Shown here one piece after another: positions 46,189 through 49,990 of a stretch of 50,950 nucleotides of DNA (its first letter is position 1; each line of letters begins with the position of its first letter). The stretch is from a bacterium (GTDB taxonomy: Bacteria; RBG-13-66-14; B26-G2; WVWN01): positions 1 to 50,950 of the forward strand of contig DATKVX010000126.1 in assembly GCA_035529855.1 (NCBI GenBank). Direction: 5' to 3'. The notes beneath the pieces are model-generated. The model made no database searches. It was not told where the DNA came from and was given only the letters and a program-made list of their open reading frames with translations. A program made the position numbers and the translations under genes.

Positions 46189-48693
46189 TTACTTACATAC
46201 TACATTCAAAAGCTTATCGGGCACAAGTATTTTTTTCGCGACTTCTTTACCCTCCAGGTAGCGCGCGACGTTGGTGTCTTCGGCGGCGGCGGCGAAGACG
46301 TCGTCTTCGCTCGAGCCGGCGGCGACGTCGACGCGGCCTCGCACCTTGCCGTTCACCTGGACGACGACCGTAACCCGCGCCGCGCCGACCGGTTCCGCGT
46401 CGTATTCTTCCCACTGGTCGCGGAAAACCGAGTCGTCGTGGCCGGCGCGGTGCCAAAGCTCCTCCGCCATATGGGGTGCGAACGGCGCGAGCATCTTCAT
46501 CAAGTGGTAGAGGGCGTAGCCGAACGCGGGCGATTTTTTATCTTCGTACGCGTACAGGGCATTAACGAAGTCCATCAGGAACGCGATGCAGGTATTGAAG
46601 TGCAGGCGCTCGAGGTCGTCGGTAACGCGTTTCAGCGTCTGGTGGGTCGTCAGGTACAGTCCTCTTTCGCTCGGGGAGAGCGTTTCGGCGTCCAGCGAGT
46701 CGCGCACGGTTCCTATATTCCCAACGACGAGGCGCCACACGCGGCCGAGCCACTTCGCCGCGGCGCCCACGCCTTCGTCGGTCCACTCCATATCCTTGCC
46801 GGGCGGGCCGGCGAAGGTTATGTAAAGCCGGGTCACGTCGGCGCCGTGTTCCGCGATGAACGGGCCCGCCGGGACGGCGTTCCCTTTCGACTTCGACATA
46901 ACCTCCATCGCGGCCGAGCCGTCGGCCTTCGCGACGCGGGCCTTGACCATCCCCTGATTGAAGAAGTGGGGGAAAGGCTCCGCGTCGCGTACGAGCCCTT
47001 CGTCGGCGAGGAATTTCTGGAAGAAGCGCGCGTAAAGCATGTGGCTCACCGCGTGTTCGTCGCCGCCGATGTACTGGTCTACCGGCATCCAGAAGTTAAC
47101 GCGGGCGGGTTCCCACGGCTTCTCGCCGTTATGCGCGTCGCAGTAACGCAGGAAGTACCAGCTCGAGTCCACGTACGTATCCATGGTATCGGCGTCGCGT
47201 TCGGCCGGGCCGCCGCATTTGGGACACGTCGTCTCGACGAACTCGCGGCAGCTCGCCAACGGCGAACGCTCCGCGGGCGCAAAGTCCACCTTATCTTCGG
47301 GCGGAAGCAGCACCGGCAACTCGTCGTAGGGGACCGGGACTTCGCCGCAGCTCGAGCAGTGGATTATCGGAATGGGCGCGCCCCAGTACCGCTGGCGGCT
47401 TATGAGCCAGTCGTGAAGGTGGTAGTTGACCGCCGGCCGTCCCCAGCCCTCCTTCGGGCCGACTTCGGCGAGCTTGGCGTTGCCCTCCTCGGTCGTCAGG
47501 CCGGAGTACGGGCCGGAGTTCTCCATAACGCCGTAGTCCTCGAGCGCCTCCGTCATCTCCCTTTCGTCCGCCAGGCCGCCGTCGGGGGGCCGGATGACGG
47601 GGACGACCGGGATGCCGTACTTGCGGGCGAAGAGGAAATCGCGCTGGTCGTGGGCGGGGACGCCCATAACGGCCCCCTCGCCGTAGCTGATGAGGACGTA
47701 GTCGGCGACCCAGATCGGGACCTCCTCGCCGCTCAAGGGGTTGCGGGCGTACCGGCCGATGAAGACGCCGGACTTCTCGCCCGCCGCGGACGCGCGGTCG
47801 ACCTCGGCCTTATTTATCGCGTCGCGGCAGAACGACTCCACTTCGTCTTCCGTCGGGAGCCCTTTTATCAACTCGGGTATAGCGGGGTGCTCGGGCGCGA
47901 GCGCCATAAACGTCACGCCGAAAAGGGTGTCGGCGCGGGTCGTGAATACGTCGAAGCGGCGGCCGTCGCCCCCGACGACGGGGAAGCGTACGGTCAGGCC
48001 CTCGCTCCGGCCTATCCAGTTACGCTGCAGCGTTACGACGTGGCGGGGCCAATTTTCCTCGAGCAGCGCGAGGTCGTCGAGCAGGCGGTCGGCGTATGCC
48101 GTTATCTTGAAATACCACTGCTCGAGGTAACGCCGCTCCACCGGCGTATCGCACCTGTAGCACGTCCCGTCTACGACCTGTTCATTAGCCAGGACCGTCC
48201 TGCACCCCGGGCAGAAGTTCGCGGGGCCGGACGTACGGTACGCCAGGCCGCGCTCGTAAAATTTGAGAAAGAGCCATTGCGTCCATTTGTAGTAGTCGGG
48301 GCGGTAGGCGGCGACTTCGCGGCGCCAATCGTAACCGACGCCGGCGCGCTTCAGCGTCTCGCGGGACGTCGCGATGTTCTCCGCGGTCCATTGGGCCGGC
48401 GAAATGCCGCGCTGGATGGCGGCGTTTTCCGCCGGCAGGCCGAAGCTGTCCCAACCGATGGGGTGAAGGACCTCGTACCCCCGCATAGCTTTGTAGCGAC
48501 CCAGGACGTCGCCGATGAAGTAGTTCTTCATGTGGCCTACGTGGAGGTCGCCCGACGGGTAGGGGAACATCTCGAGCAGGTAGAATTTGGCCTTTTTCGA
48601 ATCCTCGTCGGCCTCGAAGAGGCCGGCCTCTTCCCAGAATTCCTGCCACTTTTTTTCGACTATCGGGGCGTCGTATTCGTCGGCCTTCGCCAT
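46189..48693 (-). CDS. leuS: Leucyl-tRNA synthetase
   Basis: 834 residues from ATG 48693, which has GAGGTG 8 nt upstream; a GTG at 48702 three codons earlier is the alternative. It charges tRNA-Leu. Class I signatures are the HIGH motif as HVGH (near residue 51-54) in MFPYPSGDLHVGHMKNYFIGDV, and KMSKS as MSKSKGN in the region near residue 600. The editing domain is present (EGAVMGVPAHDQRDFLFARKYGIPVVPVI), as are the zinc-like Cys pairs (CPGCR...CYRC, CPKC), FAPHMAEELW and the C-terminal VQVNGKVRGRVDV. Bacterial type, normal length. It has its own promoter and an attenuator-like leader with a Leu-rich peptide (48721-48866). See findings. Confidence 0.98.
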   Translation of the reverse strand: MAKADEYDAPIVEKKWQEFWEEAGLFEADEDSKKAKFYLLEMFPYPSGDLHVGHMKNYFIGDVLGRYKAMRGYEVLHPIGWDSFGLPAENAAIQRGISPAQWTAENIATSRETLKRAGVGYDWRREVAAYRPDYYKWTQWLFLKFYERGLAYRTSGPANFCPGCRTVLANEQVVDGTCYRCDTPVERRYLEQWYFKITAYADRLLDDLALLEENWPRHVVTLQRNWIGRSEGLTVRFPVVGGDGRRFDVFTTRADTLFGVTFMALAPEHPAIPELIKGLPTEDEVESFCRDAINKAEVDRASAAGEKSGVFIGRYARNPLSGEEVPIWVADYVLISYGEGAVMGVPAHDQRDFLFARKYGIPVVPVIRPPDGGLADEREMTEALEDYGVMENSGPYSGLTTEEGNAKLAEVGPKEGWGRPAVNYHLHDWLISRQRYWGAPIPIIHCSSCGEVPVPYDELPVLLPPEDKVDFAPAERSPLASCREFVETTCPKCGGPAERDADTMDTYVDSSWYFLRYCDAHNGEKPWEPARVNFWMPVDQYIGGDEHAVSHMLYARFFQKFLADEGLVRDAEPFPHFFNQGMVKARVAKADGSAAMEVMSKSKGNAVPAGPFIAEHGADVTRLYITFAGPPGKDMEWTDEGVGAAAKWLGRVWRLVVGNIGTVRDSLDAETLSPSERGLYLTTHQTLKRVTDDLERLHFNTCIAFLMDFVNALYAYEDKKSPAFGYALYHLMKMLAPFAPHMAEELWHRAGHDDSVFRDQWEEYDAEPVGAARVTVVVQVNGKVRGRVDVAAGSSEDDVFAAAAEDTNVARYLEGKEVAKKILVPDKLLNVVCK

Positions 48694-48720
48694 GTCCGTC
48701 ACACCTCGGCTGCGGGAGTT

Positions 48721-48747
48721 ATCAAAACGGCGGGCTGAGCGCCCGCC
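48721..48747 (-). terminator. Intrinsic terminator in the leuS leader (attenuator)
   Basis: Minus strand: 7-bp stem GGCGGGC (48747-48741) with GCCCGCC (48735-48729), 5-nt loop, then GTTTTGAT. It lies 27 nt before ATG 48693. The 5' arm can alternatively pair with GTCCGCC at 48778-48772. Confidence 0.75.
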
Positions 48748-48780
48748 TGTGTTTTTGGGTATGCTGCCGCCGGCGGACGC

Positions 48781-48831
48781 TTACGCCTCCCGAAGTAGTA
48801 GAACGAGCTGCCGGCTGCTTTTCAAATACAT
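48781..48831 (-). CDS. Leucine-rich leader peptide upstream of leuS (16 residues)
   Basis: A short ORF reading MYLKSSRQLVLLLREA on the minus strand, ATG 48831 to TAA 48781. Five of 16 codons are Leu (TTG, CTC, CTA, CTA, CTT), the last three in a row at 48801-48793. No ribosome site precedes it, but the predicted transcription start coincides with the ATG, so translation would be leaderless. After the CTA-CTA-CTT run, its 3' end forms one arm of a hairpin (GGAGGC/GCGTCC with a GTAA loop). Position, composition and downstream hairpins match amino-acid leader peptides that sense charged tRNA by ribosome stalling. Peptide product itself probably has no function. Confidence 0.68.
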   Translation of the reverse strand: MYLKSSRQLVLLLREA

Positions 48832-48837
48832 CGCGTT

Positions 48838-48866
48838 TTTATACCATAAGTCTATCGCGGCGTCAA
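48838..48866 (-). promoter_or_regulatory. Promoter of the leuS leader
   Basis: Minus strand: -35 TTGACG (48866-48861), 17-nt spacer, -10 TATAAA (48843-48838). The seventh base after the -10 is the A of the leader ATG (48831). It begins 2 nt past the hemW stop, so leuS is an independent unit. Confidence 0.82.
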
Positions 48867-48868
48867 CG

Positions 48869-49990
48869 TTAAATTAGCGCCGCGAAAACCTCGTCCGCGA
48901 GGAACAAGCCCTCCCGGCTAAGTCGGACGTTGTTTCCGTCTACCGTTACCAATCCCGCGGCGGCGAATTCCGCGAGTTCTTTTTGATAATACGCCCGGGG
49001 GTTGACGCCGAACCTATCTTCGAAGGCCGCGGCGTCGATGCCCGCGGTCAGGCGGAGCCCCAGGACCGCCGCCGTCCTCATTTCCCGGTAGGGGTCGGAC
49101 GGTTCCGGGTTCGCGAGCGGCCAACGACCCGTCGCCGCGGCGGCGCAGTATTCGTCTAAGTCGGGCGGATTTCGGTAACGGCCGCCGCGCCAATGGCTGG
49201 CCGCCGACGGCCCGAAGCCGATATATTCCTCGTCGCGCCAATACTTTAGATTATGGCGGCACTCGCGTCCCGGCCGCGCAAAGTTCGACGTCTCGTAGTG
49301 GACGAAACCGGCCGCGGTTAGCGTGTCCACGGCCTTGTAGTACATCGCGGCCTGTTCGTCGTCGCCCGGGAATTCGTAGGCCGCCCGCTCGCGGTACATT
49401 TTAACGTTAGGCGCGAGCGTAAGGCCGTAGAGTGAGACGTGGTCCGGCTTCAGCGCCAGGCCACGCTCGAGGTCGCGAGCACAATCGTTTAAACTTTGCC
49501 CCGGCAGGCCGTACATCAGGTCGATGGAGACGTCCGCGAAGCCTTCGGCCCGGGCGCGCCAATAGGCGTCTTCGGCCTGCGCCGCGCTGTGCCGCCGCCC
49601 GAGGGTTTTAAGCATAGCGTCGTCGAAGGTCTGTATCCCGAGCGACAAGCGGTTGACGCCGCCGTCGGCCAGCGCTTCCAGGACTTCGCCGGTCAACGAC
49701 TCCGGGTTGGCCTCGCAAGTTACCTCGGCCTCGGGCGCAACGGCGAAGCGGCCCGTAAACTCCGCTAAGGCTTCGCTTAGGCGTACCGCCCCGAGCGCGG
49801 TAGGAGTTCCGCCGCCGAGGTAGAGGGTGTCGGCGCGCACGTCGCCGAGCGATAGGGACGCGGCGCCGACTTCGCCCATAAGCGCTCTAACGTACCGCGC
49901 CGCCGCGCGCTCGTCGTACGGCGCCGTCGCGAAGTCGCAGTAGCTGCAGTGGCTTGCGCAGAAGGGGACGTGTACGTAGACGCCCAGCAT
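48869..49990 (-). CDS. hemW: HemW-type radical SAM protein (heme chaperone/coproporphyrinogen-oxidase-like)
   Basis: 373 residues. Radical SAM cluster C11-x3-C15-x2-C18 in VYVHVPFCASHCSYCDFAT, then LYLGGGTPTALG, TCEANPESLTGEVLEAL, GVNRLSLGIQTFDDAMLKTLGRRHSAAQA, ISIDLMYGLPGQSLNDCARDLERGLALKPDHVSLYGLTL, HYETSNFARPGRECRHNLKYWRDEEYIGFGPSAASHW. Length and the absence of the extra HemN motifs fit HemW, which traffics heme rather than making protoporphyrin; many annotations still say coproporphyrinogen III oxidase. The ATG at 49990 has no ribosome site and lies 10 nt after a terminator T tract. Confidence 0.93.
   Translation of the reverse strand: MLGVYVHVPFCASHCSYCDFATAPYDERAAARYVRALMGEVGAASLSLGDVRADTLYLGGGTPTALGAVRLSEALAEFTGRFAVAPEAEVTCEANPESLTGEVLEALADGGVNRLSLGIQTFDDAMLKTLGRRHSAAQAEDAYWRARAEGFADVSIDLMYGLPGQSLNDCARDLERGLALKPDHVSLYGLTLAPNVKMYRERAAYEFPGDDEQAAMYYKAVDTLTAAGFVHYETSNFARPGRECRHNLKYWRDEEYIGFGPSAASHWRGGRYRNPPDLDEYCAAAATGRWPLANPEPSDPYREMRTAAVLGLRLTAGIDAAAFEDRFGVNPRAYYQKELAEFAAAGLVTVDGNNVRLSREGLFLADEVFAALI

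Follow-up and report, generated by a model that had tools for sequence, protein, structure and literature searches.

We found that leuS in the window, the whole stretch of 50,950 nucleotides analysed here, is very probably (roughly 0.88 by our estimate) under ribosome-mediated, leucine-responsive transcription attenuation, on the basis of the attenuator parts upstream of the gene, their conservation, the coding constraint on the leader and the modelled geometry. These parts and properties are established, and from them we infer the transcription start, the translation of the leader, the stalling and the readthrough. We also consider it likely that an order of an uncultured phylum, to which this organism belongs, uses a separate attenuator with a cognate leader peptide, and not a T-box, for each of valS and ileS (in two families) and leuS (in one), which would amount to a small tRNA-charging regulon that includes a leaderless Leu leader and in which such control of valS and of ileS would be seen for the first time. 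Contig C126, which constitutes the window, comes from a genome of 2.6 Mb and 97% completeness, and our genus sample comprised four species, namely this genome (G000) and the congeners G001, G002 and G003, whose LeuS proteins are 79-89% identical to that of the window. The named congeners are metagenome-assembled genomes, and two congeners are listed at NCBI as Candidatus Zixiibacteriota. The phylum was sampled with 14 genomes, and its name may differ under another taxonomy; G004 represents a sister family of the same order and G005 is a member of the class. The coordinates of the features are collected in Table 1.

Table 1. Elements of the leuS leader in the window and of the Val and Ile leaders in the genus.
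Feature	Position	Strand	Basis or detail
leuS, leucyl-tRNA synthetase	46189..48693	minus	ATG at 48693; TIGR00396, 979 bits against a cut-off of 548
Promoter	48838..48866	minus	-35 TTGACG 48866-48861, 17-nt spacer, -10 TATAAA 48843-48838; read from sequence
Leader-peptide ORF, 16 codons, MYLKSSRQLVLLLREA-stop	48781..48831	minus	ATG 48831, TAA 48783-48781; translation
Control codons CTA CTA CTT	48793..48801	minus	sequence
Arm 1 GGAGGC, pairs weakly with arm 2	48786..48791	minus	sequence
Arm 2 AGCGTCCGCC, 5' strand of the antiterminator	48772..48781	minus	alignments, pairing with arm 3, shuffles
Arm 3 GGCGGGCGCT, common to antiterminator 2:3 and terminator 3:4	48738..48747	minus	pairing
Intrinsic terminator 3:4, GGCGGGC GCTCA GCCCGCC (48747-48729) and tail GTTTTGAT	48721..48747	minus	sequence
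Val-run leaders, GTA GTC GTA GTT GTA and similar	L327:4693-4755 (G000:C25); L328:2369-2431; L329; L333	L329 and L333 minus	
Ile-run leaders, 5-6 Ile codons	L330:1972-2049 (G000:C56); L331 from nt 2659 of the reverse complement; L332:758-835	L331 minus	

The TTGACG-17-TATAAA promoter reported by the first-pass annotation is present and is kept in all three congeners; our promoter scan tool gave the site no score because it requires a T at the final -10 position. The distance from the -10 box to the leader ATG is 6-7 nt in all four species (6 nt in the window), which leaves no space for a Shine-Dalgarno sequence, and thus the leader mRNA is probably leaderless, transcription being predicted to start on the ATG or right next to it. 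A search for TTGACN{17,20}TATAAN{4,8}ATG returned four matches genome-wide and none in the reversed control, and the other three matches were set aside as ordinary promoters with chance ATGs. Such an arrangement looks uncommon in the genus, as a -10 motif at the leaderless distance was found before only 9 of 887 other genes in G002, which counts against the proposed reading.

The 16-residue Leu-rich ORF with consecutive CTA-CTA-CTT codons is likewise present as described, and the short ORF with a run of cognate codons is found in all four species by predicted translation, with the congener peptides being MYLKNSRQLALLLREA, MLKGCRQLALLLLQEA and MRNEGCRQLALLLEEA. The geometry is fixed in 4/4 species: the stop codon is at nt 49, and the control codons and arm 2 extend to nt 39 and nt 60, respectively. 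In G002 the leader has one additional Leu codon and a shorter start, and its total length is unchanged because the one offsets the other. Comparing the window with G001, we count 11 nucleotide differences in sense codons, which cause 2 amino-acid changes when 6.9 are expected (P=0.0002); judged from this sequence comparison, the leader evolves under coding (synonymous) constraint. Furthermore, the Leu codons of the control runs across the four species are CTA eight times, CTT four times and CTC once, so that CTA and CTT make up 12 of 13, and these control codons are rare, since CTA and CTT account for 4.8% and 8.4% of Leu codon use in G002 genes.

Next, we investigated the pairing arms. The first-pass annotation had described a 7-bp pairing between arms 2 and 3; the complementarity is there and includes one G-U pair, as stated, but it extends over 10 pairs (48781-48772 with 48747-48738). 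The hairpin 1:2 (GGAGGC/GCGTCC) also exists in the sequence, but with 3+2 pairs instead of the six described and with an internal G.G mismatch, which in G003 is A.G. Homologous leaders without the ORF or the alternative pairings were looked for, and all three other congeners carry both. When the stretch from the control codons to the terminator was shuffled, the observed 2:3 score was reached in 10 (G000), 1 (G001), 65 (G002) and 0 (G003) of 1000 shuffles, that is, in at most 1% of shuffles in three of the four species, with the pairing in G002 being weaker. Arm 2, which overlaps the final nucleotide of the stop codon, is invariant in the four species, and because of this absence of variation the covariation evidence is thin and speaks neither for nor against the 2:3 pairing.

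The terminator 3:4 (GGCGGGC/GCCCGCC) that had been proposed before leuS is in place. It is an intrinsic terminator between the leader ORF and the gene, with a stem of seven G-C pairs and a 5-nt loop, identical in all four species and followed by T4-T5. Its T-rich tail GTTTTGAT is short, which counts against the attenuation reading. This short U-tract, together with actinobacterial leaders of which some are without clear terminators (PMC1262725), would fit an alternative in which leader translation acts on Rho-dependent termination, on RNA stability or on the translation of leuS, and not on intrinsic termination; the seven-pair stem and T run shared by the four species, and the complementarity of arm 2 to the 5' strand of the terminator, make this alternative highly improbable. 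On the plus strand the same hairpin (48729-48747) also has a T-rich tail, TGTGTTTTTG, and it could therefore stop antisense transcription as well.

The upstream neighbour on the minus strand is hemW, which ends at 48869, about 120 nt before the hairpin, and the hairpin might accordingly be read as the terminator of hemW, with the short ORF a by-product of the leuS promoter and a following ATG. The T-rich tails on both strands of the hairpin would suit such a role. However, the promoter sits between hemW and the hairpin, so that leuS transcripts starting from it must cross the hairpin, and neither the synonymous constraint, the rare Leu codons and the fixed geometry nor an arm 2 that lies outside the terminator and yet does not vary would be expected of an element that ends a gene. 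We regard this explanation as very unlikely. A third explanation is a T-box or another leader that senses tRNA or a ligand directly, with the ORF incidental. Its appeal is that leuS in Firmicutes is commonly under T-box control, but the transcript before the terminator would be only about 85 nt long and is mostly ORF. The T-box (stem I with specifier loop, T-box sequence; Rfam model) had no match in the leader even at a loose threshold, and the Rfam search of the leuS leader gave no family at the gathering score, with only weak matches to unrelated families in a loose search. We consider the probability of this third explanation to be close to negligible.

To return to leucine-responsive attenuation, the nascent RNA was folded with an assumed ribosome footprint reaching 15 nt upstream and 11 nt downstream of the first A-site base; the sequences used to choose the arms were also the ones that were later folded. 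With the A site at any of the three Leu codons of the window leader, the modelled probability of the nascent 2:3 helix is 0.99, and with the ribosome at the stop codon it is 0.00. In the other three leu leaders the probability is 0.35-1.00 at Leu codons and 0.00 at the stop. In the model, a ribosome at the stop codon covers arm 2 and a ribosome at a Leu codon leaves it clear, and thus the 2:3 helix, which excludes the terminator, is correctly placed for a stall to be told from a completed leader, given these footprints. Without a ribosome, the folding model gives antitermination for G001 and G003, two of the four species. We attribute this to the weakness of hairpin 1:2, which is not reliably formed in ribosome-free folds, and hence this protector hairpin does not appear to be a reliable part; in the modelled folds the ribosome at the stop codon is probably the main switch instead. 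Additionally, the full-length RNAs of G000 and G002 favour 3:4 at equilibrium even with a stalled ribosome, and since 3:4 is the more stable once arm 4 has been made, the switch in these two species would have to be kinetic and decided before arm 4, as in trp attenuation. Both folding results weigh against the proposed reading.

Conservation, coding constraint, rare codons and modelled geometry thus support the trp/leu-type attenuation originally proposed, which would operate as follows. Transcription would begin at the leader ATG, or 1-2 nt from it, and the leaderless mRNA would be translated into the 16-residue leader peptide. When Leu-tRNA is plentiful, the ribosome would reach the stop codon and cover arm 2, 3:4 would form and transcription would end before leuS. 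Under a shortage of Leu-tRNA, the ribosome would stall on the rare CTA/CTT codons with arm 2 uncovered, and arm 2 would pair with arm 3 as soon as the latter is made, allowing the polymerase to continue into leuS. The same logic would apply before valS and ileS of the lineage, using the Val-run and Ile-run leaders. Caution against relying on anatomy is nevertheless warranted by ilvBNC of S. coelicolor, where altering candidate upstream codons was reported to be without effect (PMC1262725).

We searched the class Ia synthetases of the genus and found that valS is preceded by its own Val-run leader and terminator in all four species, and ileS by its own Ile-run leader and terminator in the three species in which the region is readable, the ileS upstream region of G002 being masked. 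The Val leader is VEIIKVAVVVVVRGAPARPW, with three homologues, and the Ile leader is MYSRQPANAIIIIIDLPRSGRLRMP, with two. In both types of leader arm 2 lies inside the ORF and is complementary to arm 3. The Val 2:3 complementarity by itself is no better than chance in G002 (305/1000 shuffles) and G003 (165/1000), and the helix displays a compensatory exchange at one pair, which is C-G in G000 and G001, G-C in G002 and U-A in G003. Cognate leaders at further synthetases point to a system, which also argues against assigning the leuS hairpin to hemW. In the sister family, G004 has a valS leader, MSHDVKKVVVDVVVKGPPVATR (L339), and a shorter ileS leader, MNTFVIIIGNT (L345), each with a terminator and antiterminator pairing. 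Upstream of leuS in G004 and G005 there is no leu leader, which counts against the attenuation reading, and among the readable loci of G005-G010 none showed a clear leader at valS, ileS or leuS. Before 14 other synthetases of G002, which were located with E. coli queries in the genome taken in stretches, we found no cognate leaders; proS and serS could not be placed with certainty. Past the Ile terminator, ileS is preceded by a second promoter-like site, TTGAC-17-TAAAAT (L330, L331, L332), and may therefore also be transcribed from an unattenuated promoter. In G002 (L333:1036-1992) and G003 (L328) a gene of 319 aa without a Pfam match separates the Val leader from valS; it is absent from this position in the other two species, and the Val leader thus heads a variable operon.

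Upon searching more widely, a sequence model of the leu leader run over the 14 phylum genomes gave strong matches in the four congeners only, with the others at chance level, and about 105 further bacterial leuS loci yielded no nearby Leu-rich ORF that made a convincing leader with a terminator. The chromosome of G002 was also surveyed in stretches for amino-acid runs before terminators, which gave a noisy list. Beyond leuS and valS, two candidates were examined closely, one with a VVVV run and one with a Cys run at 457157, and both read as C-terminal ends of longer proteins. With respect to amino-acid supply, an inability of the lineage to make branched-chain amino acids was considered and then dropped for valine and isoleucine, because ilvC is present in three of the four genomes. 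No clear LeuA was found in the genus genomes. The sole HMGL-like protein of each genome (L188:1120-2562 in G001, and its homologues) scores below all LeuA and citramalate synthase cut-offs, which makes leucine synthesis doubtful in the genus.

When comparing the leader with known systems, we observe likenesses in organization. The leuL leader of E. coli, before leuABCD, contains a CTA CTA CTA CTA run that resembles the CTA-rich leader described here, and it likewise has mutually exclusive hairpins and a terminator. Unlike the present leader, leuL controls biosynthesis, is longer (28 aa) and is not leaderless, and no sequence homology is claimed. The pheM-pheST system of E. coli is similar in that attenuation of a synthetase depends on a leader peptide enriched in the cognate amino acid, but the amino acid is phenylalanine and the host belongs to the Gammaproteobacteria; again, no homology is claimed. 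Candidate leuS attenuators were predicted in 2005 in Streptomyces coelicolor and S. avermitilis, and pheST and trpS are named there as further cases of synthetase attenuation (Seliverstov et al. 2005, PMC1262725). The Streptomyces candidates resemble ours in having a Leu leader ORF, an antiterminator and a terminator before leuS (PMC1262725). Thus, the suggestion that leuS control of this type would be a new case is correct for the lineage, whereas leuS attenuation as a kind had already been predicted. Streptomyces belongs to a different phylum. The 2005 study describes attenuators of leuS and trpS and translational T-boxes at ileS and leaves valS unmentioned (PMC1262725), whereas the lineage examined here has candidate leader-peptide attenuators at valS and ileS too. 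In bacilli, a His leader peptide precedes hisS*/hisZ, which are paralogs of hisS (Naville and Gautheret 2010, PMC2965389). This case is similar in placing leader-peptide attenuation at synthetase-family genes where T-boxes are usual, and it differs in its amino acid, histidine, and in its phylum, Firmicutes (PMC2965389). We found no published leader-peptide attenuator of valS or ileS in the open-access literature, which was the scope of the search, subscription papers lying outside it. The set of valS, ileS and leuS is the more novel part compared with leuS alone. Overall, these findings would add an uncultured phylum to those in which tRNA synthetases are under classical leader-peptide attenuation, and the different leader sequences that would serve three related amino acids in the same way bear on how often such switches arise anew, while also offering natural variants for testing whether termination is set by the ribosome at the stop codon rather than by a protector hairpin.
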